A stretch of DNA of 64,000 nucleotides, from positions 8,013,647-8,077,646 of the forward strand of contig ML681997.1 in assembly GCA_007922195.1 (NCBI GenBank). Reading direction: 5' to 3'. Of this stretch, positions 37,446 through 63,989 are shown in pieces (within the stretch, counting starts at the first letter, position 1; every line of letters begins with the position of its first letter). Position numbers and translations under genes: made by a program. The notes under the pieces were generated by a model. It did no database searches, was not told the origin of the DNA, and was given only the letters and a program-made list of their open reading frames with translations. The stretch comes from Podocnemis expansa. Taxonomy: Eukaryota > Chordata > Testudines > Podocnemididae.

Positions 37446-38420
37446 GGCTATGTCTACATTAGGCAAACTTAGTTCGGACTTGCTAGTCCCAACTAAGAAG
37501 TTCGAGGTTAGTCTGAACTAACCTTGGGCTAGTTCAAGCTAACTGTGGACTTCTTAGTTCAAACTAACAGGGCGTTCTAGTTTGAACTAATGCGTAGTTT
37601 GAACTAGAACGTATTTTTAGTTCGAACTAATGGCTTAGTTCAAACTTCTTAAGTTCGATCTAAGCCTTAGTGCGTGTGTTGCTTGTGCTTAGTTCGAACT
37701 GAAGTTCAAACTAAGCATGGAAGTCCAAACTAACATTGGTACTTACAAGTTTGGACTAAGCTTTCCCTAGTCTGAACTAAGAAATTTCTTAGTTTGGACT
37801 AGGCAAAGCCTAGTGTGGCCATGGGCCAAATTAGTCTGGAGTAGGGGTCAGCAACCTTTGCCGACTCCTGTGCCAGTCCTTCCTCCCCAACCCTCAGCTG
37901 GTGCCAGCAGATCCCTCTGCTGAAAAAATGTGGCAGCTGCCTGAAAATTCAGCAGTGGTCACGGCGGGAGTGGGAGTGTTTCCCAGGCATGCCACAGAAA
38001 GAAGTCGGCCAGCGTGGCTCATCTTGGTGGTGTGCCTGGGGACAGGGGTCCCCAGGCATGCCACGAAAAGAAGGGGCTCCTTTCAGGGCTTCCCTGGCAT
38101 GTTGCAGAAAGAAGCTGCCTGGAGTGCCTCCTTTGGGGAGCATCATACTACAGAGAGGAGCCACTCTGGCCGGCTTTTTTCTGTGTCATATGAAGGCATA
38201 AGCATGGGGAAACCCCCTGTGGCCCAGATGCACCCAAAGGAAGCCACCCAGAGTGGCTTTCTATGGCAGGAGTGGCAATTTCTTTGGTACTTCAGAGGGT
38301 GCTGCCTACTGCTCCGAATGGGCTGGGGTGCCACTGTTGGTACACATGCCGTGGGTGGCCTACCCCTGGTCTGGACTCAGACTCCTTAGTCTGGACTAAT
38401 TTGCCAGTGTAAACATGGCC
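37446..38420. mobile_element. Harbinger-type element, AGTTCGAACT type (copy A2), with a hAT inside
   Basis: Starts ggctatgtctacattaggca and ends 'ttgccagtgtaaacatggcc'. Flanking trinucleotides AGA and ATA agree at 2 of 3. The left 390 bp is an array of AGTTCGAACT-type palindromes (intact near 37619, 37638 and 37690). A hAT at 37842-38368 splits the element; the palindrome array ends with 'actaatttgccagtg' after it. Confidence 0.85.
37842..38368. mobile_element. hAT element inside Harbinger-type copy A2
   Basis: Starts taggggtcagcaaccttt and ends 'gtggcctacccctg'; flanking octamers gtctggag (37834-37841) and gtctggac (38369-38376) agree at 7 of 8. Its start and end belong to the hAT family with GGGGTCGGCAACC...GGTTGCCTACCCCTG ends. 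Inside, a 'ggcatgccac' block recurs, giving spurious frames. Confidence 0.88.
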
Positions 38421-38782
38421 ATAGAGGCAACTGAAGTAAAAATCTTAAATGAACCAAATTGTGTCATAGAATTTCTATAGAAAGTAATTCTATGCCTGAC
38501 TAATAAGAACATGGCAGTAGAGACATACTACCAACCACCTGACCAGAATGGCATGCCCACATCTTGAACACTGAATGCCGATATGATTGTCTCATCTCAA
38601 AAAAGATATCTTGGAATTGGAAAAGGTACAGAAAAGGGCAACAAAAATGATTTGGGATGCGGACTAGCTTCCATATAGAAAGAGATTAGTAACACTGGGA
38701 CTTTTCATCCTAGAAAAGAGGTGACTAAGGGGGGATATGATAGAGGGTTAGAAAATCATGACAGGCGTGGAAGAGTGAATAA

Positions 38783-39463
38783 GGCTGTGTTCACACAGCC
38801 TCCTTATTTTGAAACAACAGAGGTTGTTTCGAAATAAGGTTTCAGCTGTTCACACGACACACAGTTGTTTCGAAACAAGTTAAACCCCATTTGGGGTCGA
38901 AACAAACTTGTTTCGAAACCCTTGTTTCGAAACAAGGCGTGTGAACGTGTTGTTTCGGAACAAAGTGTTCTGAAACAACACTGGATCCTCAGCACCCTGG
39001 CCAGGGAACCCTCAGGACCTTGGCCAGGGTGCTGAGGGCTGTCCCTCAGCCCCAGAAAGGGGGCTGCAGCCCCGCTGGCAGTGTCAGGGGGGGGCAGCCC
39101 GGGCTGCCGGCTGAGCCCCGTGCTCCCGACCCGCTGGCGGGGTTTGGAGGCAGCTCGGGCGGCTGGCTCCAGTGCCCCGCAGCCGCTCACCCCCCCACCT
39201 GCCGGGGGCTACAGCCCCCTTTCTGGGGCTGCAGGGTGAGCTGCCGCAGCGGCTCACCCCCAGGGGGCTGCAGCCCCCTGACACAGGTACCGAAATAGCA
39301 AGTTCACAGTATGAACCTGCTATTTCGATTCCCGCTTTTTCCCCTTATTTCGAATTAACATTTTGTTAATTCGAAATAAGTTTTTCCGAAATAAGGGTTA
39401 TTTCGATATATGGTTGTTTCGAAACAACCGTATCGAAATAACCCGCTGTGTGAGAACACAGCC
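38783..39463. mobile_element. Harbinger-type element, TTTCGAAA type (copy C1), TAA duplication
   Basis: Starts GGCTGTGTTCACACAG and ends CTGTGTGAGAACACAGCC, inverted ends, flanked by TAA at 38780-38782 and 39464-39466, the TWA duplication expected of PIF/Harbinger. Both subterminal regions carry many intact palindromes (ttgtttcgaaacaa near 38923, ttatttcgaa near 39344). The middle is a GC-rich core (38990-39290) with 'gggctgcagccccctgacac'. It sits in the CR1-like LINE. Confidence 0.92.
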
Positions 39464-39709
39464 TAAGGCAGCATTATCTATTTCTCATAACAGAAATACT
39501 AGGGGTCACCAAATGAAATTAATAGGCAGCAGGTTTAAAACGAACAAAGGAAAGTCTTTCTTCACACAATGTACACTCGATCTGTGGAACTCATTGCCAG
39601 AGGATATTGTGAAGGCTAGGCTTACAACAAGGGTAAAAAAGGAACTAGATAAGTTTTTAAATGATAAATCCATCAAGGGCCATTAGCCAGAATGGGCAGA
39701 CCTATAAAC

Positions 39710-39918
39710 CAGTGGTTCCCAACCTTTTCTCTTTTGTGGCACACTTTGATAACTTTAATTATTTTGAAGCACACCACCATATAGTCTCCAAATAAACTCA
39801 TGAATATCCATGAGCCAAAGCAGCACTCCTCAAGTAGTTTTTCAAAAACTTTCATGGCACATTTGCTCAGGCCTGATGGCACACCCATGTGCGGTGGCAC
39901 ACTGATTGGGAAACACTG
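39710..39918. mobile_element. hAT element in the CR1-like 3' end
   Basis: Starts cagtggttcccaaccttttc and ends 'gattgggaaacactg'; flanking octamers ctataaac and ttgtaagc agree at 5 of 8. It contains 'ggtggcacactgat' like many vertebrate hAT elements of this type. Confidence 0.8.
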
Positions 39919-40100
39919 TTGTAAGCAGTACTGTGAAGTGCTCCTAGTCTCTGTTTGCCAGTATCTGGAAATGAGCAACAGAAGATGGCTCACCTGATGA
40001 ATTGCCCATTCTGTTCATTCCCCCTGAAGCACCTGATATTGGTCACTGTCTGCAGACAGGGTAGTTCGCTAGCTGGAACCTTGGTCTGACGCAGGTTGGC

Positions 40101-41674
40101 TGTTCAGAGGGGCGCAACTTAGTCCAGGCATAAAGGTAATCATTTGTGAAGAGCAATTATAACTGGTTAAACTTAGTAAATCTAAACTCCAAAATATCGG
40201 GTTTGCTTTTCACTCAATTCTCCCCTCTTTCACTAGCTGCTTATTTCCTCTACTCTTAAAATATGAAATAAAACAAAATAAAAAATCACCATAATTTAAG
40301 AAAAGTGTCAGGATAAAAATATTGGTGGTAAGTTAACATTTTGAGTAAATGCCCTTTAACATCAGTGGGCCAGGGTTTCACCCTATGTTTTTAAAATAAC
40401 TTATTGTGGATCAGAGCCATAACTACAGTGGGGTGAACACGGCTTTGCCCGGGGCATGCCGGAGTGGCTCAATATAGCCACGCTATTAAAGGCGCATTTT
40501 GTAATGCCAGCCCCAAGCGCCACTAATTGCAAAGGGTGCTCAAACAGAGCATTACAGCTTTGTTTAAGATTTTGTCTGTTTTATTTTTCAAAACTATTTC
40601 CATTACAAAAATAAATTCCTAGATGATCTAGTTTATTTTGCAATATAATCAAGACTGATTGATAGTATTTTTTCATATAACCAAGAATCACAGGGCCAGA
40701 TACTCAAGTGATGTAAATTGAAATCCACAGAGCTGTCATGCTTTACACAAGCTGATGAATCGGGGCACTGCTCTAACACATCTTTTGACTCCTGATGTAA
40801 AAAGTGAACAAAGTAGAAAGTGTATCTGAGTCACAATCAGAGGTAATAATTAATTTAGCCATTATATGTGGTCCACCTTTATAGCCTACAACAGACCTTA
40901 TATTAAAAAAATCCTGTCCCTAAATTGTCCATGTTATCACTTTAAATGGTTAATAAGCTTGGGAATCAAGGAAGGTTGGTGAGACTCTGATGATTCTACC
41001 TTCACAATGTTATTTAGTTCTTGTCATGATTTGTTTCTTTGTGCAGCCATTAAGTCAGGCTAATGCAGTCACACAGCACCTAGCGTGGTTTTCCCTAAGG
41101 CTGGGGATCTAATGTCAGGAGGGTACGATCCAATTCACATCGAGAAGGATACATTAAATATTTTTACTTGGGGTCTTGTCAGAAAAAGGCGACCTGCCTG
41201 CTATCAAGTGCACTGGGGGTGCCCCAGTGCATAAAAGTGACTTTATGTGCTCATTGATACAGAATAGATTGTCACTAAGCCTCTGAGGCACTCTTGTCAA
41301 GGTCAACGTACTGATCTTTTTTAACAACAACAGGGGGAAGGGCGTATCAAAATATGACCTTTAAAGATCCTCGTCTTTGGAGGATCAAAAGATTCTTTTA
41401 GTGCAAAAAGGATGTTATATATTTCATTACCTGTGGGCTTCTCCTATCCTTCCTTGCTAAGAAACTGGCAGGTTTTTTCACATTGTAGCAGCAAAAGCAT
41501 GCAAGAAACTGTTTATTGATAGCAGGATAATGTTCTCATCAATGTCATTCAAGAAAACACTCAATTTGAGAGTTCCCACAAAGACGTTTAACTAATATGT
41601 AGGACATTTCGGGCCATAAGTAAATCTTTCCAGCTGTCAGATTTGTATGATCATATTTATATGTTTATTTTATT
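40101..41674. other. Mostly unrecognised; hAT-like start at 40426
   Basis: At 40426, 'cagagccataactacagtgg' followed by 'ggctttgcccggggcatgcc' matches, in inverse, the end of the element at 21985. Its other end was not seen. The rest is AT-rich with no identified feature. Confidence 0.5.
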
Positions 41675-41892
41675 TACATTACGTTAGGGCTTAGAAGTCC
41701 TACTTGTGGACCAGCTTCCCATTGCGGTAGGTGCTGCACAAACACTCAACAAAAAGTCAGCCCTTGCCCCAAAAAACATGGAATGCGAATGTAAGACAAG
41801 AGGCAACAGATGGATTCAGAGGAAGGGGGAAACACAATGAAACAACGAGACACTGTGGACCACAAGATCAGCTGTGGTCCCTGCACACCAGC
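41675..41892 (+). repeat. Dispersed repeat ('gtaggtgctgcacaaacac')
   Basis: 'attgcggtaggtgctgcaca', 'aacactcaacaaaaagtcag' and 'ccttgccccaaaaaacatgg', then 'gtaagacaagaggcaacaga', match an abundant old repeat of turtles and birds whose class I do not name. It ends where the Harbinger transposase similarity begins. Confidence 0.6.
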
Positions 41893-42203
41893 AACATTTA
41901 GATAGCATTTTTCAGCCAAGACAGCAGCTTTTTAATGGCTGCATCAGCCGCTGCCGCCAGGCGGTTGAGTGGGCATTCGGCAGACTGAAAGCCCGGTGGA
42001 GGTGCCTCCTCACATGCCTGCACCTCGCCAAAGACAAAATTGCGGAGGTCATCAGTGCCTGCGTGGCACTGCATGAGCTCGGAGGGGAGACAGTAGCCAC
42101 CCTGAGGCAGAGCTTGTCAGTGGCCGGTCCCAACAGCCAGAGGTTTTGGCCCCAAGGGAGTGAGTGCCGCAGAGAGCAAACACTCTGTGCAAGGCACTAA
42201 TGG
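41893..42203 (+). pseudogene. PIF/Harbinger transposase, C-terminal fragment
   Basis: An open frame whose reliable part reads RQQLFNGCISRCRQAVEWAF then GRLKARWRCLLTCLHLAKDK and EVISACVALHEL. This is the third catalytic block of DDE_Tnp_4 transposases: the glutamate of VEWAFGRLKARWR is the catalytic E. The rest of the enzyme is missing. The methionine at 41874 lies in the neighbouring repeat, so the true start is not here. The gene ends at a TAA near 42198, about 90 bp before an AATAAA. Confidence 0.88.
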
Positions 42204-42334
42204 ACCTGTTTGTGACTGAGGACCTGTGAGGGCTAGGACCGTCGCCCCACACCCCCCAAACCTCTGTCCAGCCACAGCCAGCCCGCACCCAATAAAAGCA
42301 CAAATTGAACTAATTTCACTATTCGGGTTTTTAT

Positions 42335-44084
42335 TTACAATGTGGGCGGTGAGGGTTGGGGCAACGAAAGGTTTGGGAAGCAGGTATGGGATGTGGCACT
42401 TTGTAGGGAGAACTGGGGGGGGCATAAACTGGGAGATGGGTACGGGGAGACTGGGAAGGGGCATGAACTGGGAGATGGGAAGTGGGTAGGGGTTTGGGGA
42501 CTTTGAAAGATGAAGGGGGCTATTGGAGGCCATCCCAGGCCCATGGCCCTCTGTGCCACAGCCTTGAGCAAGACTGCGCCAGGTCCGGGGACGCTGGCAG
42601 CGAGGGACAGCTCCCTGCCTGTGAGGCACTCCCTCAGGAGCTGGGGGGGTGCAAGGTGCTGTGCTATTTGCCACAGGGTCAAGGCAACGTCCTGCACAGC
42701 AGCACCGATGGTCCAGAGCGAGTTGCCCTGCTGCTCCAGAGCCACAGCCTGCCACTCCATCGCTGCAGCCTGCTCCTCCATCGCAGAGATGATGCGGTCG
42801 TCTGCATCGGCTGCACACTGGAGCTGGTGGATGGTGGCTTCTTGGCGCCTGCCCTGCTGTTCCCTCCAGGCCTGGGGTGACTCCTCCACTCAGTGGCTGA
42901 GCTCAAGGAGGCTGCTGAGGATGTCCTCCTTGGTGTGGTGGGCTCTCCTCCTCTACCTCCTAGCTGTCCAGGGATTCTGCAGAGCAGGATGGTGGGTGTG
43001 TCGGCAAGCTGCTGGGGCGAAGCAGGGAAAGCGTTAGCCCCCCTTTGCCTGACAGCCTTGCCTATGTGCAGCAAACCCCTCTGCCCCAACTGTCAGCGGC
43101 ATTCCCCATCTGTGTCCTGTGGGACACTGCACAAGGGCACACATGGCCTCATGATGCCCGCAGTGGTGAGCGGTATTAAGCAGGATGTGGGCTGGGAAGT
43201 TTCCCGAGGCCACGTGCCAGCGGTGCAGCTTGCACACTCTCTGACCTGGATGCTGGCATGCCACCTGGTTGGCACCTCGCCTATGTGCATCCCCTGCCCC
43301 GCTGGGTCCTGGCATCCTGGTGTTACATGTCCCTCTGCCACCACCAGCCATGGGAAGGTCCTTGTGCCCCCCGCGCCCCATGCCCTGCGTGTGCCAGGGC
43401 TTTGCACCCTAGCTACCCATGGCATTGGCAGACTCCTGCCTGCCTGGAGCGGGAAGGAACACTCACCAACAGGTGCTCCAGATGTTCGCCCGGATGTCCC
43501 CTCTCTCAGGTCAGATGTGGGTGGTGGTGCCTCAGTGTCCCACTCTGGCTCTTCCTCCTCAGGAGTGGTTGGCCCTTCATGAGCAGGGAAGCACTCAGGA
43601 CTAGCCGATGGGGCAGCTGGCAGTTGGGCACTCCCCAGCCGGCTGATGTCTCCCACATCGAGGGATGCCTCCCTGTCCGAGGGACCTCCCTCGGGGGATG
43701 TGGCCACAGGGGTGGGCTCCCCAGAGTCAACGGTCCAGGATGGGAGACCGCTGGGCTTGTCCCTGAGGAACACATCCAGTTACCAGAAAAAGGGGCAGCT
43801 GGTGGTGCTAGCTGGCCCCTGGAGCTGCCTCACATCCCTGGCACACACATAGTCTTGACTCAGGGTTTTGAACACACCTGCTTGGTTGTGTGTTCATGTC
43901 CCTGGCCTGTGTGGGCCATTTCATCTGCAATGTCTGCATTGACATCACGGTTGCAATGTCTAGTGTGGAAATGCACATGGATGTCCTCCCTGCCCCATAT
44001 GTTGAGGAGGCAGAAGACCTCCTCCCACACCGACGCAGGTGCCCGGCGTCGTCCCTGGGCTGTGCCAGCTTGTGTCTCAGCCAT
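42335..44084 (-). pseudogene. Myb/SANT-like DNA-binding protein of Harbinger, two exons
   Basis: Starts MAETQAGTAQGRRRAPASVW at 44084. A Myb/SANT-like region follows (to about 43870), then, after a frameshift, an acidic stretch ending EEEEPEWDTEAPPPTSDLRE. A donor GTGAGT follows exon 1 at 43466-43461 and an acceptor (CTTTCCCTGCTTCGCCCCAG) ends at 43012; joining 43467 to 43011 keeps the frame. Exon 2 has EDILSSLLELSH, a stop, then EESPQAWREQQGRRQEATIH and a glutamine/alanine-rich coiled stretch. At least one frameshift and two stops make it non-functional. A plus-strand frame of 337 codons antisense to it is a shadow. Confidence 0.78.
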
Positions 44085-44149
44085 GCTGCACCAGCTCCAG
44101 GCACATGACAGCAACGGGGCTGGGCACTTCCTCCTTCCTGGTACTGTGT

Positions 44150-44365
44150 ATCCTGGGAAGAGGAAAGGCAATCCAAGCCGGAATCGAAATAACAGCCATT
44201 TTGAAACGTATCCTAATGGTGTTGTTTCAAAACACCCATTTCGATTCAATGGCTGTTTCAATTTCCAATGAAGTTTTGTTATTTTGAATTGAGTTTCATT
44301 GTTTTGAAATGATGAGCTCCATCATTTCAAAACAACGGAACATCCCCCGGACATAACTTTTTTTA
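44150..44365. repeat. Right subterminal palindrome array of the two-gene Harbinger
   Basis: Contains 'ggaatcgaaataacagccat', 'tgttgtttcaaaacacccat', 'ttatttt-gaattgag' and 'catcatttcaaaacaacgg', decayed TTTCGAAA palindromes as in copies C1, C2 and C3. The terminus 'cggacataac' is a worn GGCTATGTCCG-like end on the minus strand. Confidence 0.7.
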
Positions 44366-44384
44366 AAATTGAAACAACCCAAAA

Positions 44385-44620
44385 TGCTACACTGCCAGCC
44401 AATTCTTTAGTAACTACAAACAAAAGTTTAATATAACAAGAAAAGAAACAAAATGAGAGATCTTAAAGGGTCAAAGTGAATCACATACATGCAAATAATT
44501 TAGAGTTCATAGAAACTAAATCCTTGAAGAATTTGGCATCTGCAGGTTAGTCCAATTCCTCTGGTATCTACCCAGCACCTAGGTGGGTCTCAATCCTATG
44601 ACAACTTTGCTTTTAATTTG
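44385..44620. repeat. LTR-like interspersed repeat (third copy)
   Basis: 'ctgccagccaattctttagt' and 'aactacaaacaaaagtttaa', then 'gtgaatcacatacatgcaaa', correspond to 8600-8710 and 25330-25430. It is a partial copy. Confidence 0.6.
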
Positions 44621-44689
44621 ATGATTAATTTTCATGAGTTTGATGACTTGTAATTTTGATTCTATAGAATATTGTTTAAAATTGATTTT

Positions 44690-44782
44690 CATTAGCGTAG
44701 TACAAAAATTCACAGCACACTTGGACACTTCTCATGGCACACCAGTGTGCCACAGTACACTGGGTTGAAAACCACTGGACTA
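44690..44782 (-). mobile_element. hAT terminal fragment
   Basis: Ends 'gggttgaaaaccactg', which on the minus strand is CAGTGGTTTTCAACCC, followed by a gtactgtggcacactggtgtg-type interior. Only this end is recognised. Confidence 0.65.
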
Positions 44783-44784
44783 AA

Positions 44785-44786
<2 letters not shown>

Positions 44787-44832
<46 letters not shown>
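44787..44832. repeat. TA microsatellite
   Basis: About 22 TA units, directly followed by LINE sequence. A shorter TA run (about 45536-45546) follows the LINE's 3' end. Confidence 0.95.
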
Positions 44833-44833
<1 letters not shown>

Positions 44834-45480
44834 CAGCACAAGAACAGGCACTGAGCACCAGATCCATTGAAGCAGGGGTCTACCACACTAGACAGGACCC
44901 AAGGTGCAGACTGTGCAGAGAGGCCTCAGAGACAGTCCGACACATAGTGGCAGGATGTAAGATGCAGGCAGGAACAGCATACACTGAACGGCACAACCAA
45001 GTAGCTGGCATTGTGTACAGGAACATCCACACAGTGTATGGGCTAGACCCTCCCAAGTCCAGATGGGAGATTCCACAGAAGGTCGTGGAGAATAACAGGG
45101 CTAAGATCCTGTGGGACTTCCAGATCCAGACGGACAGGCAGGTACTGGCCAATCAACCAGACATCGTGGTAATAGACAAGGACCAGAAGACAGCGGTGGT
45201 GATAGATGTAGCAGTGCCAAGTGACAGCAACATCAGGAAGAAGGAGTATGAGAAGCTGGAGAAGTACCAGGGCCTGAAAGAGGAACTAGAGCGGATGTGG
45301 AAAGTGAAGGCCAAAGTGGTCCCAGTGGTGGTAGGAGCACTCGGGGCTGTGACTCCTAAGCTGGGAGAGTGGCTCCAACAGATCCCAGGAACAACATCAG
45401 AGCTCTCTGTCCAGAAGAGTGCAGTGCTAGGAACAGCTAAGATACTGCGCAGAGCCCTCAAACTCCCAGGCCTCTGGTAG
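44833..45480 (+). CDS. LINE ORF C-terminus: CCHC knuckle and restriction-like endonuclease (partial)
   Basis: A 216-codon open stretch with no stop or frameshift, starting mid-protein. CRLCREASETVRHIVAGC (residues about 26-43 of this stretch) is a CX2CX8HX4C knuckle. It is followed by a helical segment, then NQPDIVVIDKDQKTAVVIDV, the PD...D core of the restriction-like endonuclease, and a charged region (EYEKLEKYQGLKEELERMWK). The protein ends ILRRALKLPGLW at a TAG. The open frame, rare here, suggests a recent insertion. The frame extends leftwards only through the TA run (IYIYIY), which is not LINE protein. Confidence 0.85.
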
Positions 45481-45530
45481 AGGACCCGAGGTTGAGGATG
45501 ACACATACCACCCATAGGGGTGAGAGAGGA
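44833..45530 (+). mobile_element. 5'-truncated LINE with restriction-like endonuclease (R4/Dong-like)
   Basis: A 5'-truncated insertion starting at the (TA)n boundary and ending near the AT-rich 'ggaatttttatatatattta'. It codes for the C-terminal endonuclease of a site-type LINE. TA microsatellite at both edges suggests insertion into TA repeats; Dong-clade elements are known for microsatellite targets (TAA). The clade (R4/Dong against NeSL or R2-like) is not settled. Confidence 0.8.
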
Positions 45531-45745
45531 ATTTTTATATATATTTACTGTACCACCAATTAAGAAGCCCCCTTCCCCCTACTGAGGTAGTTCCTGTGAC
45601 AAGCAGAGCTAGCACAGCTCTTAGGAGCTCTTGCGCATGCAGGAAGTGTGGTTTTCAATGGGCTAAAGTTCAGTCAAATCAAAAACAATTTTCACAACCA
45701 CACACAAAAGCATGTCTCCTACGTGAGAATCATCTGTTTACCACA

Positions 45746-45975
45746 TTTCACAGAGTCATAGATTTTTAAGGCCAGAAGGAACTGTTATGACAGCTAGTTT
45801 GACCTGCATAGTAGAGAGCACAGCAACTTCTGTTCCTCACCCAGCAATTTCTGTATCAAGCCCACAACTTCTGCTTCAGCTGTAGTACATATTTTAGGCC
45901 ATCAAGTCTTGATTTAGAGACTTGGTGCTATAGATAATCCACCACACCTCTCACTAAATCATTCCAGTGACTAAT
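45746..45975. repeat. Dispersed repeat ('agagtcatagatttttaaggccagaagg')
   Basis: 'gagtcatagatttttaaggc', 'cagaaggaactgttatgaca' and 'aatccaccacacctctcact' match an abundant turtle repeat, probably a CR1-type 3' end in inverse orientation. Its opening resembles the repeats at 11636 and 54896. Confidence 0.6.
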
Positions 45976-47391: not shown

Positions 47392-47819
47392 GGCTATGTC
47401 TACATCAGCAATTTTAGATCAGACTTGCTAGTCCAAACTAAAGAAGACCGAGGTTAGTCTGAACTAACTTCAGGCTAGTTTGAACTAACCGCAGCTTTGA
47501 ACTAACTCACTGCACGTTTTAGTTTGAACTAATGTTTTGCTTCAGACTAGAATGCTCAGCTAGTTTGAACTAATGATTTAGTTTGAACTTTTTCAGTTCA
47601 AATTATGCCTTCATTCGTGCCTTGCCGTGCAACTAAAGTTCGAACTGAGTGCAGAAGTCCAAACTAACATTGGCACTTATTAGTTCGGACTAAGCTTTGC
47701 CTAGTTTGAACTAAGAAATTTCATAGTTTGAACTAGGCAAACCCTAGTATAGCCAAGGGCTAAATTAGTCCAGACTAAGCTTCCTTAGTCCAGACTAATG
47801 TGGCAATGTAGACATAGCC
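47392..47819. mobile_element. Harbinger-type element, AGTTCGAACT type (copy A3)
   Basis: Starts GGCTATGTCTACATCAGCAA and ends 'ggcaatgtagacatagcc', with inverted ends near-identical over the first 14 bp. TTT flanks it at 47389-47391 and 47820-47822, although the right flank is a T-run. The interior is filled with AGTTTGAACT/AGTTCGAACT palindromes. Confidence 0.88.
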
Positions 47820-47822
47820 TTT

Positions 47823-48650: not shown

Positions 48651-48654
48651 AAGG

Positions 48655-48880: not shown

Positions 48881-48895
48881 TTTAGGGCTACTGTA

Positions 48896-51370: not shown

Positions 51371-52142
51371 GGCTATGTCTAAGGGGCTCAGTTAATTTGA
51401 CTTAATAAGGTCTGCTTAAAGTCGACTTTAATATAGACCTTATTAAGTCGACTTAAGCCAGGGGGACCCATTTAAAGTTGACTTAATAAAGTGGACTTTA
51501 AATGGGTCCCTGGCTTAAGTCACCTTTATAAACTCGACTTAAAAGGCTCTATTGCACTAAGTCAACTTTATTAAGTCAACTTTAATGGGCACATTGCTTT
51601 AAGTCGACTTAATAAAGTCAATTTAACCCTTAATGTTGACTTTAAGGACAGGAGTTATTAAGTTGATTTAAGCAAGCGCTTAAGTAGAATTAATGAACTC
51701 CAAGGGTATGTCTACACAGCACTTTTATTTTGAAATAACACTGGTTATTTTGAAATAAAAGATATTTGGTCCACATGACGTTTTCTTATTTCGAAAGGAC
51801 GGATCCTGTCCTTTCGAAATAAGAACCGTTGTTTTGAAACAGGTTAAACCCTGATTGCTTCGAAATGGCTGTTATTTTGAAATGGTTATTTCGAAATAAG
51901 GTCATTTGGACATGTTGTTTCGAAACAACACCATTGTTTCAAAACAACTGTTTTGAAACAACATGTCCAAAAGGCTTTATTTCGAAATAACCATTTCGAA
52001 ATAACAGCCGTTTTGATAGCAGGCTTCTTATTTTAAATAATCCTTATTTTGAAATAACGATGTGTGTGTAGACATAGCCCAAATGTGGCCAGGGAGCTGC
52101 TTAAGTTGACTTAAACTTAAGCCGACTAGTGTAGACATAGCC
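51371..52142. mobile_element. Harbinger-type element, AAGTCGACTT type (copy B3), with copy C2 inside
   Basis: Starts ggctatgtctaaggggctca and ends 'gactagtgtagacatagcc'. The array of AAGTCGACTT palindromes is very regular (51417-51445, 51530-51560, 51600-51640), with intact gtcgac or tcgact cores. Flanks AAA and AAG share AA. A TTTCGAAA-type element is inserted at 51704-52080. Confidence 0.88.
51704..52080. mobile_element. Harbinger-type element, TTTCGAAA type (copy C2), nested
   Basis: Starts gggtatgtctacacagca and ends 'tgtgtgtagacatagccc'. Flanking trinucleotides CAA and AAA agree at 2 of 3. Intact palindromes include atttcgaaagg, ttatttcgaaataa and tgttgtttcgaaacaaca. The longest palindromes lie at 51888-51900 and 51978-51996. 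It interrupts copy B3 and is therefore the younger. Confidence 0.9.
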
Positions 52143-52457: not shown

Positions 52458-52531
52458 AGGGCCTGGTCCAAAGTCCACTGAAGTCAATGGCATTCTTCCT
52501 ACAGACTTCATTAGGCTTTAGATCAGAGCCT
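52458..52531. repeat. Short palindromic element ('gggcctggtccaaagtccac')
   Basis: The left arm gggcctggtccaaagtccac then tgaagtcaatgg, and right arm 'gacttcattaggctttagat' then 'cagagcc', are imperfect reverse complements forming a ~30-bp stem. I recognise this type as a common amniote palindromic repeat. Confidence 0.7.
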
Positions 52532-54333: not shown

Positions 54334-54462
54334 TCCAAAGGGGCAGCCGTGTTAGTCTAGTAAAGCAAAAAAAGCAAGGAGTCTTGTGGCACTTAAAGAC
54401 TAACAGATTTATTTATCACATGAGCTTTTGTGGGAGAAAATCCCACTTGGTCAGATGTTATT
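54334..54462 (+). mobile_element. Penelope-like terminal repeat (near full unit)
   Basis: 'ttccaaaggggcagccgtgt' to 'aatcccacttggtcagatgt' is a whole PLE terminal unit in plus orientation. AGATGTT occurs on both sides, but AGATG is also part of the unit, so the duplication is ambiguous. Confidence 0.82.
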
Positions 54463-54527
54463 CCACACTCTACCAGCATTACCCAATCTGCGCTGTATCT
54501 CACATTCAAGATTAGGCTCTACACTGG

Positions 54528-54895
54528 TGGGTCTGTTATGTCAATTTAAAGTCAACCTTGTTAAGTCAACTTAGAGTGTCCACACTGAGACTCCTGTCGA
54601 CTGCCTGCACTGGCAGGTGCTAAGTTGACCCTTCCTGGTGGCTAGGAACTCTGGGAGAGGGCCTGGAGGCCAATTAAGTTAATTTAAGGGCTATTCCCTA
54701 TCTACACTGGCTTAAGTCAATTTAACAAGGTTGACATAAGTGTTAGGTCAACGTTAAGAGGTTGAGTTATTAAGTCAACTTAAGGAAGCACTTAAATTGA
54801 CTTAATAAAAGCCCCCTGTGGCTGCGGGGGTCTGTAGGTCGACTTAAGCTTCCTTAAGTCAACCTAAGGCTCCAGTTTAGATGTACTCATAGGCT
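54528..54895. mobile_element. Harbinger-type element, AAGTCGACTT type (copy B2)
   Basis: Same order of blocks as copy B1: 'taaagtcaaccttgttaagt', 'gtccacactgagactcctgt', 'ctatctacactggcttaagt', 'gttattaagtcaacttaagg' and 'tctgtaggtcgacttaagct'. The left end is gggtctgttatgtc. It is followed directly by the dispersed repeat at 54896, as at 11636. Confidence 0.75.
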
Positions 54896-55000
54896 CTAAG
54901 GTCAAAAGGGACAAATATGATCATCTAGTCTGATCTCCAGCACTATGCAGGTCATAGAGCCTCACTCACCCACGCCATTAATCTCTATGTCTAATTTGTC
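54896..55000. repeat. Dispersed turtle-type repeat next to copy B2
   Basis: 'ctctaaggtcaaaagggaca', 'atatgatcatctagtctgat' and 'cactatgcaggtcatagagc' match 11636-11740. Only its first ~100 bp is present. Confidence 0.65.
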
Positions 55001-55118
55001 CACAAAGCTTACTGTCTAATTTGCCTATGGCGTCTCTACTGACTTCAGTCTTAGTCATGTTCATTTTCACCCCATGCCTACTTAGCTGGTCATATCAATG
55101 ATTGACTATTTCCTCAAG

Positions 55119-55719
55119 TTTCAAAGGGGCAGCCGTGTTAGTCTAGTCCAGCAAAAAAAAAAAAAAAGGGGTTGTGTGGCACTTTACGACTAACAGATTT
55201 ATTTTTTGCATGAGCTTTTGTGGGAGAAAATCCCACTTCGTCAGATGCTTCGAAGATGGGGAAACTTACAGAATGGAATGAACATCAGAAATCACAAAAC
55301 CAAAAACTAGTTGCTGAGCACTTCCATCTTTCTAATCACTCGACAAATGATTTGTTAACAACTGTACTCAGAGACGTCAGTGGGACATCAAGATTTCAAA
55401 GAGAAACAACTGAAGTGGAATTAATATGAAAATTAAATTGTGTGAAAGCAGGATTAAATTGAGACAATGGGTTCTTTTCCCATTACAAAAGGTAATTTGA
55501 CTTCAGCCTTCCCAGGGTTTGAACCTAAACAACTGCTCTGATTTGCTGTTACTGTATGACCTGATCCTATGTTTTACACCCCCTTGCATTTATTTTCATT
55601 CCATTCTGTAAGTTCCCCCATCTTTGAAGCATCTGATGAAGCAGGATTTTTCTCCCACAGAAGCTCATGTGAAAAATAAATCTGTTAGTCTTTAAATGCC
55701 ACACAACTCCTTGGTTTTT
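55119..55719. mobile_element. Penelope-like element with inverted arms and 12-bp duplication
   Basis: The left arm (about 55125-55285) and right arm (about 55595-55715) are inverted copies ('gatggggaaacttacagaat' with 'attctgtaagttcccccatc'). TATTTCCTCAAG is exact at 55107-55118 and 55720-55731. The 300 bp between the arms corresponds to PLE sequence near 6660-6850, with no coding part. It breaks the LINE reverse transcriptase just after its YADD block. Confidence 0.93.
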
Positions 55720-56159
55720 TATTTCCTCAAGGTCTTTTGAAAGATGCCCTTTGTTCTAGGTCATCTGCATAGAAGCTTCTCACCTTTTCCCATTGGGATT
55801 TTCCTGCTAACACAGCCAATGTAGCTATTGTTAGACACTGTGAATAGCTTGATAGCAATTGCATATTTAGTGGTGACTGTGCATGTTATTTGCTGATTAT
55901 TTAATTGTCCCAAGAGACTTGAGAAGGATGATGGGATGGATAGTACTGACAGTGATGTAGCGATTCTCTGTAGATCTGTTGAGTGGGTGTAGAGAAAGGG
56001 AGCCTCAAGGACATATTCAATGGAGGCAGTAAAGGCGAAGGGATTGGCTGGTAGCAGAGCACAGGTTGTCATTGGAAAACGTAAAGCCTGGACTCATGGC
56101 AGCAATGACTTCATTCATAGTTTAATTCTTTAGTTAGACATATTGCAAACTCCTCCCAG

Positions 56160-56763
56160 GACGCAGTGAGCAGAGGGAGGGAGGAAGAAGCACTCAGAGG
56201 TAGAGTAGCAACCGGGGCCCCCAACACGGTCTTCGTTGTCAGGTGTGGGTGTTGGGAGCTTGAACACTATTTCAGCTGGCCACCGGTTTCTGAGGACTAC
56301 CACACTGATATCACACTGGTGACTACCCACACAAGCATGGACACACCTTTAGGGTGACTTAGCATCTTGGTCTTTACCTAGAACATGAGGTGAGAGGCAA
56401 TGACAAAGCACATGGTACCACTGTGTTTCACAGGTGCTTTTTCCCACATACTATTTAGCCTTTCAGGTGCCAATCCCTTCCTTTTTTGAATGGCTTAGCT
56501 TAACACATGGCTTGGGGTGCATTGAAGGAAAATTGTAGCAGTCCTAATGATTTCAGCCTGTTTCCAATCTGACTTCTGATATGAGAGTCACCTTTCGCTG
56601 AGGCCACAAGCAGTCTAAAACTGGCATGAGTGCTAAATCAGGTCCCTAAGATCCAAAACAAAATTAGAGGGGCCAAATCTTCACGTGATGTGAGTGTGCA
56701 TAACTTCATCATCTTAAATACATGTTTGAATTACACCAGTGCCACCAGTCTTTAGTCATGTCG
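56160..56763. other. No recognised feature
   Basis: No gene or repeat identified. Confidence 0.45.
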
Positions 56764-56940
56764 GTCCCAGGATTTTAGAGTGACATGGTGGCTGTAGTAC
56801 TATCTTTTACTGGACCTTCTGCTGTTGGGGAAATGCAAAGCTTTCAAGCTGTCTGTTGCACAAAAACTGGTCTCTTTCACCAGCTGACATTCGTCCAATA
56901 AAAAATATTACATTACCCACTTTGTCTCTCTTTGTCTGTA
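56764..56940. mobile_element. Second foldback family, PLE-like
   Basis: Left arm 'gtcggtcccaggattttaga', then 'gtactatcttttactggacc' and 'gcaaagctttcaagct'; right arm 'tcaccagctgacattcgtcc', then 'aataaaaaatattacattac' and 'ccactttgtctctctttgtc' in inverse. The unit resembles a reptile repeat with the form GCCGTGTTGGTCCCAGGAT...CAAGCTTTCGAGC, which parallels the PLE terminal unit in layout but not in sequence. Confidence 0.6.
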
Positions 56941-58087
56941 TGAATGTAATCTTTTACATTATGAATTGGTGCCAAGTACAATGACTACACTAACTACTAC
57001 ACCTGCTTATGACCACTTTACCCAAGGCTGCTAGTAGTTTTACACAAGACAGACAATTAGGAACTGACCCTGGGCTTGTTGAAAATATCTTAATTCTAGG
57101 GATGCACCTAAGAGGTAAATGATGTTAATGCATTAGCAAGACTTGCTAATAACTGACATCAGATCTGGCAGGTTTCCACCAGGGTACAAAGTTCTCTCGT
57201 TTATTTTCTGTAGGGTAAATGGAAATGTATTGTAATCTGGATGTGTTAGCTTGTCTTGAATGGTAGTAAGTGCAAATATGTAAAATAAAGGGTTGTAAAT
57301 AGAGCAGATGCAGCCAGTAAAGAGATCATGGTACATCAGACATGCTACTGTACTCAGATCAGCAAGTCCCATTACAGCAATGTTTTCTGTCATACTTTTG
57401 CTTTGTTAGACCCCCACGTCTCATGCACAGGACTTTCATGTGGTGTTAGGAATTCTGGCTCAGTGGGGGAAATTATCAGCCTCAGTTATTTCCGTTTCAG
57501 CTGAGCTGTTGTAGTAGTCAGGCAATTTACACTACACTTCTGAACATCGAGTGTGTAGTACAGTACAGATAGTGAAAACTGAAATGCCTAAATGTTATTT
57601 CTTCTAGCTGTTACTTTCATGCTAAAACACACAGCATACTTCTACCTTGGATTCTTTATTGAACAATGCATACAGGAAATGTATTGTCTCAGAGAAGGTA
57701 CGTTCCTTAGCATGCTCTTGTGCATGAGATAAGAACCAAGAAACAAAACTAAGAAAGCGCAAATGTCACCATTTATAATATAACCACAAGCAAGCTTTTC
57801 AAAAGAAATGTTTGGGGTGCCTCAGCATCTCAGATGACTAAATTGAGACACTTTGAAGAGGCCTGATTTTAAAAATGAGTGCAGGGTCTGTGAAGGGGTG
57901 TAAAAGCCTCTTTCTGGAGACCTCAGGCTCCTGGCACACTCTGTCCCAGAAAGGAGCAGTGGAGCAAAGTCTTCCAAGCAGTCTAAACAGACCATGCAGG
58001 AGGCAGCCTACTAGGGAAAGGCAGCAGGAACCAATCAGAGGACCCTATAAAAGATTTGTAGTGCTAGAGTCTGTCAATTCCTTGCTG
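56941..58087. other. No recognised feature
   Basis: About 1.1 kb with nothing identified. Short frames have no recognised domains. Confidence 0.45.
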
Positions 58088-58095
58088 GAGCCAAG

Positions 58096-58258
58096 CAGGG
58101 GCATTGCTGCCCCCCCAAAAATATTTGGGGCACAGGCCCCACCCCCCTACTCTCCCACCTGCTGCCAGCAGCACCGATCCAACCTCCCTGGGCCAGATCC
58201 AGCCCCCCCTGCTGCCAGCCCCCAAGCCCCTGTATGCCCAATCTCAGCGAAGCCCATG
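58096..58258. mobile_element. Short hAT element (CAGGGGCATTGCTG family)
   Basis: Starts caggggcattgctgcccccc and ends 'ctcagcgaagcccatg'. Flanking octamers gagccaag (58088-58095) and aagccaaa (58259-58266) agree at 6 of 8. Related to 22945-23314. Confidence 0.7.
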
Positions 58259-58266
58259 AAGCCAAA

Positions 58267-59860
58267 GATGTGCAGATGTTGCTCCTGGTGGACCAAAGTG
58301 AGCTGCCATACCATGGATAGCTCGGTTGCTGGCAGGGACCGGGGAATCAAGAAAGGAGCTCCTGGCTGACTGCTAGGACAGAGTTCAAGATTGCCCTGAA
58401 GTAAGGGTGAAACATTTGTGATGGGGCTGGGGCTAAAGGCAGTGGCCCAGGAAAATGGAGCAACAGAGTGAAGAGTTAAAGCAGGTCTCATGTGGTTGCT
58501 CTTCATATGGTCTGTAGGCTGGAACCTCAAGTAGTGGATGGCCCAGGATATTAAATCCTAGAGGCAGGTTTCAATTAACTTATAGAAAAAGTAACATTTT
58601 ACATTCAATTTGATAGGTTTTTAGAATTTCCTGGAGCCACCAAAAATGTCTGTCAAGCCCTCTTGATTTAATTCCTATTGAACTTTAGCAAACTTTTGAT
58701 AAAAATGGAATGAAAACAAAATGAGAGAAAGAAGGAAGGAATTTCATTAATGCCCAGGTTGTAGAAAGTAGCACTTTTTGGTTTAACAATGAATTGTTTG
58801 TTTTTTTCCCAAGAAGAGAAGTGAGGCAATTATTTTCAGCTGCCTTTTGTCTTAGCCAACAATCCTGCTAATGTTCAAACCACTCCAAAAGGCTGCTTTC
58901 ATCAACAAACAAAGTGGTGATAGTAAAAATGTTGACAAGGCAAAAATTATGAAAAGCCATGTTAAAAAAAAAATTACACTGATGTGAATTGGGTTAAGTG
59001 TCAATGTGAGAGTCACGGGAATCAACATGTTCCTGCTGCCTAAGACTGTCTATAACCATGCAATAACTCCAAATATTTCAGGTTTTGCTTGAATCGCCAA
59101 GTGGAACCTGATCATTTCAAACAGTTCTGCATAGCAGGCATGGATGAAGACTGGCTTCCTCGCCTACAGTCTTGAAATCTAAATATAACAAACCCTTTAT
59201 CCACAACTTTTCTCTCATGTGTATAAATGGGCTAATCTTGTTCTCTGAACAGATTTCTGTAAGTAAAATAGTTCCTTTTTTTCTAGTTGTGGTTGGTACA
59301 GACCTGCTTTGTGCTATAATAAATGAGTAACTTGTGACACTATGTTTAAACTCATGATTTAATACCTACTCTCCATTTCAGAGCTGTATTTTTCTTGTTC
59401 AATATTATTTTAAGCTATTTACAAAAGAGCCACATGTTGTATTAAATCCATTGCAACCGCAAATAGCAGCAGCCTGTGAGTAAAATTGGCACCCTAGTGT
59501 GTAATCTGCATAGCAGTATTTAATAAAGGGATCTTGGCAAAGCCCAAAATCAAACACTAGGGGGCACCAGCACCTTTTGTTAGGAATACTCTAATGTACA
59601 AGAACACACAATGAAACTAAGCTGAAAAAATACCTCATGGTACTACACTGAAGGCTGGCTTGTCTACAAAGAGCAGAACTGCTGTCAGCATGTTTACTGC
59701 GAGTCTTTCTCTGATTCCTGTGTGCATAATTAAATAAATAATCACATGACTCCGGTACAATTTACCCGTAGAAAGAGTGAACACTGAGGTTGTGAAAGAC
59801 GCCAAGTTTGAGGAATGCGATTTTGATTGAATGTTGGGGGTTACGTGCTTAAGAACCAAA
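58267..59860. other. No recognised feature
   Basis: About 1.6 kb of AT-rich sequence; no gene or repeat identified. Confidence 0.45.
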
Positions 59861-61720
59861 CCGTTAGGGAATGACCAAGGTCAGGTTGCAGCCAGTACTT
59901 CATCTCTGCTTTTCTGTGTGTACCCATCATGCGGTTGCTGCTATTTTGCCATCACCTTGTCCCATCAGTCAGAGTTGGTGGTTCTTGTTCTTTGTTTCCA
60001 ACTTTTCTTGTCAAGTGCATCTTCCAAGCTGATGCCAATCTTCATGTCTTAGTCCAGCAACTCCAACCACATTTTTCTATGTTTTCCTCATGGTCTTTGT
60101 CCCATGACTATTGGTTCTTGTAGTCTCTGGCCAACATATCCCCTTGTCTCTTCTCATGTGACCAGCCATTTTGGTTAACATTCCCTTAGCTTTTCTGCGA
60201 TTGGAGGTTGGGGGCTGCGGAGAGGAGGGAAGCTTACTGCCCTATGGCTCAAAACATTTTGTTGTGTAGTTTATCTTCTCTTGCTTTACCAGAATCCACC
60301 TGAGCATTTTCATTTTAGCAGTACCAAGTAGTTCTCTCTTCCCCATTGGCCTGTGTTCTGACTTTACATCATGGTTGGCCGAATCACAGTCTTATACACT
60401 TTGCTTTTAATCTACTTGGCATATGCTTATTTCAGGGAGTTAACGGGAGCTCTATCTATTTATGCCCAGCCCTCTTCATGTAGCTATTAACATCTGCATC
60501 CACAAGCCTATCATGGCTCAACATTGAAATGAGGCATCTGCACAGACTTTAACCTTATACCATCTAGTTCTACAGGCTTCTCAATGAAGCATCACTTATA
60601 TTCTGTCTTTTGGCAGCTGATTAGTAAGTACTTTCCTTCTAATGCATCCTTTCATCATTCTAGCTCCCATTCCAGTTTGTATTTAACCTCATGGCACAAC
60701 ATAATGTCATTGGTCAAAAGCCTGCTCCATGGAACCACCCTCCTAATCTACTGCAGCAAGGTGTTCATGCCAGTCACAAATAGGAACAGTCATAAGGCTG
60801 ATTACTGATGTAGACTTAGTCTCACAGGCTATGTCCACATGTACATAAAATTCTTAATTTGAATTAACGTAAATCAAAATAAGCAAAAACCTCAAATCCA
60901 AATAGCAAGTCCAGACACAGGCCTTACTATTTCGAATAAGGAGAGGGGCACCATGGGAGGTGTGGCAACATGGCCCTCTCACTGGGCCATGCCCCCACCC
61001 AATATATACAAAAAGGAAGGCACCCTGGGAAGGAGAAGGGAAAAAGTGTTATTTTGAAATAACACAGCCGAATGGCATTATTTTGAAATAACCATTTTGA
61101 AATGAGATGATTCAAATTAAAGTAGGTTTAAGCTATTTTGAAATAATATCTCTTGCTTTGAAATGATGGAGCTTGTCACTTCGAAACAAGAAAACATCGT
61201 GTGGACCTAATCTTTTTTAAATCAAAATAACCAATGTTATTTTGATTTAAAAGATATGTATGGACATACCCACAGTGAATGATTGAATAAAGTCGCAGAA
61301 GCTTCTTGCTACCATTGTGATATCCTCAGGCATGTCCATGACATTCTGAACATGTGTCTCCAGCAGTCTGCATGACTCCAGGTACCTCCAGTGTGATTCT
61401 CTGTCAACAGTGGTATTGGAACAAATTTTGTAGTGGGAGTGTTGAAAGCCCTTGGACCAGACTTTAAAACCCTATATATGGTGGAAATGACTTCAAGCCA
61501 GAGGGTGATATCACACCAACAGCACCCCTCGTTCCAACACCTTTTTCTGGGAACTTTGTCATAAGCATCCTCAAAATCCACAAACACAATATTCAGCTCC
61601 TTGCATTTCTTCTGCTATATTTTAGCTGCAAACTTGGTATCTATTCTTGACTTTTCTGCATAAACTCAAATTGATTGCTTGATTCCTGCGCCATCCTCTC
61701 TGTAACTCTTCTCTTGCTCA
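59860..61720 (-). pseudogene. Decayed non-LTR reverse transcriptase (second LINE)
   Basis: On the minus strand, FVDFEDAYDKVPRKRCW (61585-61535) corresponds to the F-V-D-L-E-K-A-Y-D-R-V-P-R block of many LINE reverse transcriptases. After a Harbinger-type insertion (60827-61271), NDIMLCHEVKYKLE (about 60715-60670) is the region of the YADD motif with its first residues changed (normally A-D-D), followed by KTEYK and IEKPVELDGIRLKSVQ (about 60600-60540). Toward 60350 a CKVRTQ-like stretch marks the C-terminal part. Stops are frequent. Clade not assigned. Confidence 0.7.
60827..61271. mobile_element. Harbinger-type element, ATTCGAAT/TTTGAAA type (copy C3)
   Basis: Starts GGCTATGTCCACATGTACAT and ends 'atgtatggacataccc', with ACA at 60824-60826 and 61272-61274. 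Subterminal palindromes are mixed: taatttgaattaac, ttattttgaaataa, aaattt-type. The internal core (about 60930-61015), read on the minus strand, contains 'attgggtgggggcatggccc', homologous to the core of copy A4. It interrupts the LINE reverse transcriptase. Confidence 0.88.
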
Positions 61721-62306
61721 ATCTTAAATTCTTCCAAAGAGTTCTCCTGGTCGAAGTGAACTAGAGGATGCGCTCTCACACTCTGGAAAAGGCCTCAGGA
61801 GGCTCAGCTGACCTAGCTCTTGCCTTCTTGTGACTGAGATTGTGATCCTAAGCAGATCTGTATTCGAATCCTATACACTACAGTAGTAATTTTTGTACAA
61901 AACAAGCCTTGTGAGGTATTATTTGAAAACGAATAATTCACTGAACATTAATGTGGTGTACAATAAGTGATAGATATATGCTGGAAAACTATACGCTGGA
62001 ATTATTATGAATGTGTCTTTACCAACTTCCCCTGACATTCTTGGTTTAAACAGGTCTGATCTAAACAAAGGAATGTGTTTGGTTCTCTGTCTTTGCCTGA
62101 CAACCAGATTGGCCAAAGAAGCTCCACTTTTACTTACTAGATGTAAACAGGCTCTGAATAAGCTCTCCCATGACAATTAGTGCTAGTGATCAACTTGAGG
62201 GGAGGGAGGAGAGATTTTGGGAACAGATCATGTTTGCATGGACATGGCTGCTCTGTCTGGGTGTGCAGCATGGTGGAACTGTTCTCCAAAAGAAATCAGT
62301 TTTCAC
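61721..62306. other. No recognised feature
   Basis: No gene or repeat identified. Confidence 0.45.
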
Positions 62307-62309
62307 TTT

Positions 62310-62868
62310 GGCTATGTCTACACTTGGAATTTAGTCTGAATTAATGAGGATTGCATGGCTTTCATTACTTCAAACTAAGGAAGTCCTTAGTTTGAACTAA
62401 TGAATGCTTAGTACACCTCTGCTTAACATGCAGAAGGTCCTGGGTTCAATTCCTAGGGGGGTTAGACTCCATGATCTCACGAGGTCCCTTCCAGCCCTAT
62501 GATTTGATTTGAATTAACTTGGAAGTTATAAAACCTCCCTTAACTTCAAAGTAACAGTTAGTTGGAACTTATTAGTTTGAACTAACCAAATGGAGCTGCG
62601 TTAATTTGAACTAACTAACAGCCTTCCTCTTGCTACGTATTGGGTGGGGGCAGGGCCCTTCTTGGGTGCAATGTCACCACACTTCCTGGTGCTGCCTCTC
62701 CTAAGCCCACCTAGCAAGTCCTGTTCATGGACATGCTAGTTCAATTTGGGTTTCTAGGGGGCCCATGTTAGTTCGAATTAACTTAGTTTAAATTAACCAT
62801 TATTACTTTGAATTAATTAATTCAAACTAAGTTAATTTGAACTAACCTTCCTAAGTGTAGACATAGCC
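62310..62868. mobile_element. Harbinger-type element, AGTTTGAACT/GAATTAA type (copy A4)
   Basis: Starts GGCTATGTCTACACTTGGAA and ends 'cctaagtgtagacatagcc', with TTT at 62307-62309 and 62869-62871. Palindromes alternate between AGTTTGAACT and AATTTGAATT forms. Its internal core 'attgggtgggggcagggccc' (62638-62657) is homologous to the core of copy C3. A tRNA-derived SINE is inserted at 62406-62510. Confidence 0.9.
62406..62510 (+). mobile_element. tRNA-derived SINE with CR1-type tail, inside copy A4
   Basis: The B-box-like ggttcaattcc lies at 62443-62453, preceded by 'ctgcttaacatgcagaaggt' in the anticodon-loop position. The tail gttagactccatgatctcac then 'gaggtcccttccagccctat' matches the CR1 3' end, as for SINEs mobilised by CR1-type machinery. 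The A-box end is shortened. It is not a functional tRNA gene. Confidence 0.82.
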
Positions 62869-62871
62869 TTT

Positions 62872-63744
62872 AGTATTGAATTGGTTGTAGCAATGAGCAG
62901 TGGAAGTCAGAGTGTAGACAGGTTGCTGGGAGTCAGTGCTTCTGAACCAAGGCTTTTTAGCACACAGATGTTCAGTGCATGACCTGAATGTTTGTTCTTG
63001 GCATCCCCCAGGCAAAGCGTACAGTAGCAAAGCATTGTGAGGCCATTACAGTTGCAGGGTCAGAGGTGGCACCCCAAAACCATGAACGGCACTTAACTGG
63101 AAGCGAGGTTGTGGAAGGCAGATCTCTGATGCCCTAGAATTAGATTACAGTTGTGCCGGAAGAAAGGACTCCAATTTCAAACCAAGAAAATGTGGCTTGC
63201 CCAGCTGGCTTGTAAAAATTGTGCCAATCATAAATCCTCTACGGCCTTCATATTCAAGGACCATATCAGTACAACATGAAAATGATACACAATGGCCTAG
63301 CTTGTTAGCTGTGGAAAATGGGAAAAGTCTATGGCGTCCTGAGTTCATGTTGCCAAACAACCTGCCCCAAAACTGTTTTGTTTCCCTGAACATGAAAATA
63401 ATGACTGGAAAATCCAAAAAAATAGCTGAGATGCTAAAAGGGAGCATGCACATTGCCCATATACGTGATAGAAAATGGAACCAGTTGAAATCCCCAAACA
63501 TGTGAGTTCTGTCATCTTACATCACAGCTCAGAAATGAGGAGGATTAGAATAGGAATAATTGTTTCAGAAATACCTACAGGGTAAGGTAACAGATTTACA
63601 AAGGAAGAGTGGAGCAGCTGCTGAAAGTTAGGTTCTCACTGAGGAGAGAAGAAATATTTCAGGCTGGGATGTGTTGCAGCTTGGTTGTGTGACTGGAGAA
63701 GAAGGAATTCTAGCTAGTGCAATAGCGAGTGTTAAGTGAGGTAC
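62872..63744. other. No recognised feature
   Basis: No gene or repeat identified. The complementary frames at 63145-63505 overlap on both strands and show no known domain. Confidence 0.45.
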
Positions 63745-63989
63745 TGCAGGCTGAGGTACCGCAGATCCCAGCGGGGTGAAGCACCTGGCTGCACTCACCT
63801 CGCCGGGGTCTGCAGCCCCCTGAAGTGAAATAGCACGTCCACACTGTGGACATGCTATTTCGTTTCCCTTATTTCAAAGACACTTTTTTGTCTTTCAAGA
63901 TAAGGTGTTTCAAAATAAAACATTATTTCGAAACAGCTTGTTTCAAAACATCTTGTTTCGAAACAAGCAGTTTGTGTGTGAACATAGCC
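63745..63989. mobile_element. Harbinger-type element, TTTCGAAA type (copy C4), right half
   Basis: The core end 'cggggtctgcagccccctga' parallels copy C1, followed by 'gaaatagcacgtccacactg', 'ggacatgctatttcgtttcc', 'catcttgtttcgaaacaagc' and the terminus 'tgtgtgtgaacatagcc'. TTA follows at 63990-63992. The left end is not recognised, so it is truncated or diverged. Confidence 0.8.

Follow-up and report, generated by a model that had tools for sequence, protein, structure and literature searches.

Arrays of a 14-bp palindrome with a constant frame and a variable two-base box in PIF/Harbinger-type elements of Podocnemis expansa

The window, a 64,000-bp piece of the 2.39-Gb genome of the turtle Podocnemis expansa (contig ML681997.1, positions 8,013,647 to 8,077,646), contains a group of Harbinger-type elements, among them miniature inverted-repeat transposable elements (MITEs), in which a short palindrome is repeated in arrays. 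What is repeated is a palindromic site of 14 bp, in which a constant frame, TTR-NN-Y-CG-R-NN-YAA, encloses a variable two-base box (NN). The box variants are GT (AGTTCGAACT), AG (AAGTCGACTT), TT (TTTCGAAA), AT and AA, and set beside the AG and GT versions the TT version of the site reads TTATTTCGAAATAA. The AA box was found outside the window, in loci L054 and L055. Each element was assigned to a type by its commonest box.

Three array types are present in the window at the places where an earlier, sequence-only reading had put them. GT-box elements lie at 311-659 (12 sites, ends decayed, target duplication not seen), 37446-38420 (sites at 37446-37840 and 38380-38420) and 47392-47819 (11 sites, GT in 22/22 half-boxes, 3-bp duplication TTT), together with a mixed GT/AT/CT-box element at 62310-62868 (3-bp duplication TTT). 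AG-box elements are found at 11207-11618 and 54515-54888, both old and with diverged ends, and at 51371-52142, where the element is split by a TT-box element at 51704-52079 (13 sites, TT in 26/26 half-boxes, 3-bp duplication CAA). The remaining TT-box copies are 38783-39463 (GC-rich interior, TAA/TAA flanks, right end four mismatches from the terminus), 60827-61271 (TT in 8/14 half-boxes, 3-bp duplication ACA) and a right end alone at 63745-63989 (four sites). That each copy repeats a single palindrome, as the sequence-only reading had it, is true of uniform copies such as 47392 and 51704 but not of 62310 with its three boxes. A relic of an autonomous element occupies 41802-44330 on the plus strand, with transposase fragments at 41802-42176, a Myb/SANT-like fragment on the minus strand at 43450-44090, mainly TT-box sites at 44228-44328 and no clear ends. 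TT is probably a younger type, because a TT element sits within an AG element and TT copies yielded open transposase frames, although this is a hint from a single nesting event. The ~540 bp between the two site blocks of 37446-38420, which were kept outside the relaxed-site density count given below, are probably a nested insertion. This stretch (37841-38379) starts near GGGGTCAGCAACC and may be a nested hAT-like element. A search of the window against Rfam gave no match.

The exact terminus GGCTATGTCTACAC occurs 35,111 times in the genome (17,574 + 17,537), compared with 4 + 1 occurrences of a reversed control pattern. A terminus common to at least eleven window elements had been proposed. 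Six of them do pair both ends within three mismatches of it, the interrupted 51371-52142 being skipped by the pairing rule here and in the set of 34 two-ended elements used below; the ends of 11207 and 54515 are clearly diverged, and 63745 has its right end only. We also considered, and rejected, the idea that the ~41-bp gap separating site 2 from site 3 contains a copy of the terminal repeat: the best match was 8.4 of 14 against an expected average of 7.0, and no more than a few elements were convincing individually.

Without presuming a frame, we counted as palindromes all 14-mers in which a CG, CA or TG centre is flanked by six paired bases on either side. The census covered 318,737 bases, namely the window and loci L001, L002 and L009-L037 (L003-L008, contained in L009-L011, were dropped before counting, and L038-L067 lie outside it). 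Most loci come from the first 11 Mb of a single contig, where they were picked for an exact copy of the terminus, and counts of box types therefore do not equal genome frequencies; nine TT-type loci (L029-L037) were drawn from 150 listed transposase matches. The frame fits 162 of the 202 perfect palindromes found, compared with 19.7 palindromes and 0 in frame after dinucleotide shuffling (three rounds). Half-site forms among the 162 in-frame palindromes were TTATTT (55), TTGTTT (39), TTAAGT (29), TTAGTT (17), TTAATT (12), TTAGTC (6), TTAAAT (2) and two singletons. In twenty regions fetched later, 60 of 66 perfect palindromes were in frame. The different palindromes are thus variants of a single site.

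Within the window alone there are 36 perfect palindromes with a CG, CA or TG centre, against a mean of 3.45 and a maximum of 6 in 20 dinucleotide shuffles. A relaxed site caller, which is biased toward the TT..AA frame in a way that the perfect-palindrome census is not, placed 115 of 168 sites within 4,882 bases (14 listed stretches, chosen since they hold sites) and 53 within the remaining 59,118. Census elements have between 5 and 16 called sites. The shuffles rule out chance or base composition as the source of the palindromes, and the enrichment above base composition thus holds, for individual copies rather than consensus elements. The excess is nonetheless absent from some copies: in a less sharp test for 10-bp palindromes with one mispair allowed, z was 2.8-3.5 in five of six window elements and 0.0 in 60827, and it reached at least 2 in only 21 of 34 elements. 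One of the 34 two-ended elements, L019:6148, has no site of any box type.

The centre of the 162 in-frame perfect sites, summed from the census, is CG in 63, CA in 55 and TG in 44. These counts fit the suggestion that a central CpG would decay after insertion, yielding TTGAA/TTCAA forms. The palindromes are mostly centred on TCGA, as had been claimed of all of them, but a CCGG-centred form, TTAGTC(CG)GACTAA, is also present, with six copies in the census, every one with a decayed CA or TG centre. Going by the centre counts, a methylation-sensitive host reader is possible, and a host factor might bind the CpG-centred palindromes for expression or for escape from silencing. We consider this very improbable, as it does not explain why one and the same genome should contain several boxes along with separate transposase lineages.

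Sites of the same element tend to carry the same box. The half-box was shared in 0.682 of same-element site comparisons and in 0.216 of those between elements (27 elements, 310 relaxed sites), and random dealing of the sites gave 0.233 (maximum 0.266 of 200). Spacer dinucleotides beside the sites showed almost no homogeneity (0.110 vs 0.096). This test and those of spacing used the 27 of 34 elements that were no longer than 700 bp and had at least four sites. When the type was named from the first half-box alone, 361 of 566 later half-boxes agreed (TT 168/184, AG 85/98, GT 85/130); with a first half-box of AA or GC only 1 of 44 did. Gene conversion would likewise make an element homogeneous, and tandem and inverted copies are present, so it is conceivable that the sites were spread through slippage, inverted duplication or conversion and are recognized by no protein. 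We regard such mutational amplification as unlikely. It would copy the flanks, yet the spacers differ from one another; moreover, families with different boxes share the frame and part of the spacing, and in the transposase-bearing loci L029 and L040 the sites remain confined to the element ends.

Elements of different box types repeat the same succession of centre-to-centre distances between sites, counted from one end (~28, 20, 40-42, 22, 21, 26-27, 17-18, 14 and 28-29), with some elements missing sites. Runs of four spacings common to elements of different type numbered 25, compared with 1.7 when the order was shuffled (maximum 7 of 300), and runs of five numbered 6 compared with 0.1. A layout test with the best pairing of ends gave 0.313 vs 0.222 (z 8.4). 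Loci L054 and L055 contain AA-box ends with the layout of other families, followed by GC-rich stretches.

A comparison of consensus strings across types shows that at one end the terminus agrees at 11-14 of 14 positions and the frame at 9-10 of 10 or 16-20 of 20, against 0-4 of 7 for the first spacer, 1-5 of 6 for the second spacer and 0-5 of 8 or 0-2 of 4 for the box. The alignment of AA, AT/GT and TT elements at the opposite end extends past the array into the leader, with ~69-83% identity over 53-250 bp (blastn). Aligned cells agreeing between AA and TT were 22/156 in the box, 289/394 in the frame and 604/983 in the leader, and between GT/AT and TT 110/232, 418/565 and 989/1533. The between-type box identities from consensus strings and alignments are partly circular, because types were named by their commonest box; the half-box sharing test avoids this circularity. 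As these ends align beyond the array, with frame and leader kept more than the box, the AA, AT/GT and TT arrays are homologous and their box has changed. The homology of the AG array with the other types is suggested by terminus, frame and layout. This strengthens the proposal that the arrays, as putative binding sites, diversified while the ends stayed fixed: a 2-bp box changes across an element's sites, whereas the frame, the terminus and a good part of the spacing do not.

Folding of single-strand DNA was very strong in the three elements tried (z -20.0 for 51704, -19.9 for L025:4563 and -9.1 for 47392), and the palindromes are nested in larger inverted repeats. A serious rival is therefore that DNA or RNA structure is what matters, with branched hairpins or cruciforms aiding excision, replication or silencing and the short palindromes arising as a by-product. 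However, complementarity is all that a hairpin requires; it has no need of a single frame, box and CpG-type centre, and a rule of structure only predicts no constant frame across types. The lack of box-like homogeneity in the spacers also argues against it, and we judge this explanation to be improbable.

TT arrays flank elements that carry a DDE_Tnp_4 transposase and a Myb/SANT-like open reading frame (ORF). Matches to PF13359 (DDE_Tnp_4) reached 7.5e-39 in L031 and 3.3e-31 in L040, and the terminus bounds the transposase elements L029:2083-4695 and L040:61-3740. PF13837 (Myb/SANT-like) was matched in L031 (2.3e-18), L029 (1.5e-16), L041 (8.5e-16) and L040 (2.7e-12); the match in L039 (3.7e-5, 24.5 bits) lies below the curated cut-off of 27. 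Further Harbinger-type transposases are preceded by GT sites or AG-like leaders; they lie immediately inside a GT end (C96, also among the listed DDE_Tnp_4 matches) or an AG-like leader (C77). The leader upstream of the C96 transposase is 72% identical to 62651-62799 in the 62310 element, and that upstream of the C77 transposase is matched by 11277-11412 and 54557-54628 in the two old AG-box elements. The transposases read at TT, GT and AG-like loci are related, which rules out an origin of the copies from unrelated superfamilies with different transposases, again for individual copies and not consensus elements. Among the best 120 listed relatives of the Harbinger transposase of the window, the named ones are from turtles down to rank 89 (top 55-58% identity) and from squamates from rank 90. 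The L031 transposase matched no PDB chain by sequence.

Identical 3-bp flanks were found in 27 of 53 two-ended elements and identical 4-bp flanks in none, the shuffled mean for the former being 2.36 (maximum 9 of 1000). The 27 target duplications comprise TTT (4), ATA (4), AAA (3) and others once or twice each, with A or T as the middle base in 24. The elements thus combine DDE_Tnp_4 inside the termini, a Myb/SANT-like second ORF and a 3-bp target duplication, which are the marks of the PIF/Harbinger (PHIS) superfamily; judged by its proteins, the superfamily is PHIS, and the Harbinger-type label stands in this sense. The label of the strict PIF/Harbinger group, for which PMC4482050 gives a TWA duplication, fails, because TWA accounts for 3 of 27. 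The same paper gives ANT, CWG and TNA for the Pangu, NuwaI and NuwaII groups of PHIS, and these account for 1, 0 and 3 of the 27 duplications, respectively.

Other transposase sequences were seen apart from the arrays. A second, older Harbinger-type fragment lies at 32700-33354 in the window, with 34-45% identity to its relatives and no array seen near. At L017:5268-6102 an old fragment (59% identity to a Pangshura protein over 83 residues) lies ~280 bp from an AG-type MITE and may not belong to it. Loci L062 (C36:33731713) and L063 (C99:10581611) have ORFs 67% and 71% identical to a Caretta protein, the two transposases most like that protein, and no close terminus and no site were found in their upstream stretches. 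Possibly, these ORFs are domesticated genes or belong to another family.

Taken together, these data make it probable that the arrays are operators of PIF/Harbinger-type transposons, bound by the element's own Myb-like protein, with the specificity switched across the whole array. A Myb/SANT (trihelix)-like protein, either by itself or jointly with the transposase, would recognize each 14-bp site as two inverted 7-bp half-sites, and the placing of these sites in rows, at fixed distances from the terminal repeat, would bring both ends and the transposase together. The frame may serve general recognition and the two-base box family identity. When the specificity of the protein shifts, the sites of the array would follow while terminus, frame and much of the spacing stay, and each box type would then have bred its own MITEs. 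This reading builds on the sites, their frame and box, the homogeneity within elements, the partly shared layout, the homologous ends and the transposase genes that adjoin TT arrays, one GT end and one AG-like leader. From these we infer that the sites are bound, and by which protein, what part they play in synapsis and why the switch took place. Docking of a Myb-like protein and help in pairing the ends are the most likely roles; binding is known for the 9-bp subterminal motif in Harbinger3_DR, and pairing is thought to involve TnpA in En/Spm.

Several results weigh against an operator switched as a whole. The sharing of spacings is uneven and weakest between AG and TT (1 vs 0.6 runs of four, though 25 vs 9.0 runs of three). 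Mixing the two kinds of end, as in the first layout test, gave a weak overall result (0.129 vs 0.106, maximum 0.127 of 500); AG-TT matched expectation and AG-AT fell below it. A comparison of newly fetched with old elements, excluding those with fewer than four sites, replicated the layout clearly for runs of three (80 vs 33.2, maximum 66), but it is no more than suggestive for runs of four (14 vs 2.5) and five (1 vs 0.2), because shuffles reached 16 and 6. The first half-box predicts later ones less well for GT and poorly for AT (22/110), and some elements (L015:4638, L023, L028:769 and 62310) mix boxes. Moreover, the box does not track transposase divergence, since two TT-type sublineages 73% alike over 80 residues (58/80) have one box, while GT and AG transposases 78% alike there (59/76) differ in theirs. 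A Myb-like protein was seen next to TT arrays and, in decayed form, next to a single AG array; for GT, AT and AA none was read. Two TT-type sublineages have a similar third Myb helix at 50-58% domain identity, and outside TT the single decayed AG copy is available for comparison.

A bolder extension, which we put forward only tentatively and think somewhat doubtful, is a two-letter address code. Here one transposon group with a fixed operator grammar (terminus, frame, spacing) would give rise to new, mutually insulated families as the 2-bp box switches jointly at the sites of an element, along with the rapidly evolving Myb-like protein, and mixed-box forms, with AT as a hub, would be the intermediates. 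The hub is suggested by the mixed-box sites among 341 frame-only sites, of which 27 were AT/GT, seven AT/TT and two AG/AT, against none for AG/GT or AG/TT; two were GT/TT. The arrays may be a DNA record that matches the divergence of Myb-like proteins in one genome with tens of thousands of terminus copies, combining a fixed grammar with a switchable box. Coevolution of protein and site, and the birth of transposon families by a change of specificity, become directly testable, and the box families offer candidate orthogonal pairs of protein and site.

No published account of such palindrome arrays was found in the literature searched. Among known systems, Harbinger3_DR was reportedly studied by Sinzelle et al. 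in 2008, and En/Spm belongs to a superfamily other than Harbinger. PIF/Harbinger elements, their MITEs and Harbinger3_DR resemble the present elements in having DDE_Tnp_4 and a Myb/SANT-like ORF, 3-bp duplications and abundant MITEs. In Harbinger3_DR, a 9-bp subterminal motif is bound by the Myb-like protein (PMC9710019), and as of that source DNA binding had been shown for no other Harbinger Myb-like protein. Against this short motif, the elements described here have rows of 14-bp palindromes with one frame, at least five boxes and mostly non-TWA duplications. En/Spm is alike in its multiple internal sites for an element protein, TnpA, thought to join the ends (PMC9921582), although switching of a palindromic frame plus box is not stated in the available part of that source. 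mPing/Ping/Pong is alike as a Harbinger MITE with its helper, in which ORF1 has a GT1/Myb-like domain; domains of this kind typically contact 6-8 bases, near the size of the 7-bp half-site here, and the main text of PMC9921582 does not contain 'subterminal' or 'palindrom'. Teleost Harbinger elements share the pair of transposase and Myb-like protein, and according to the main text of PMC9179366, in which neither of these two terms occurs, the Myb-like proteins diverge far more than the transposases; the switchable box described here would be a possible DNA counterpart of that divergence.

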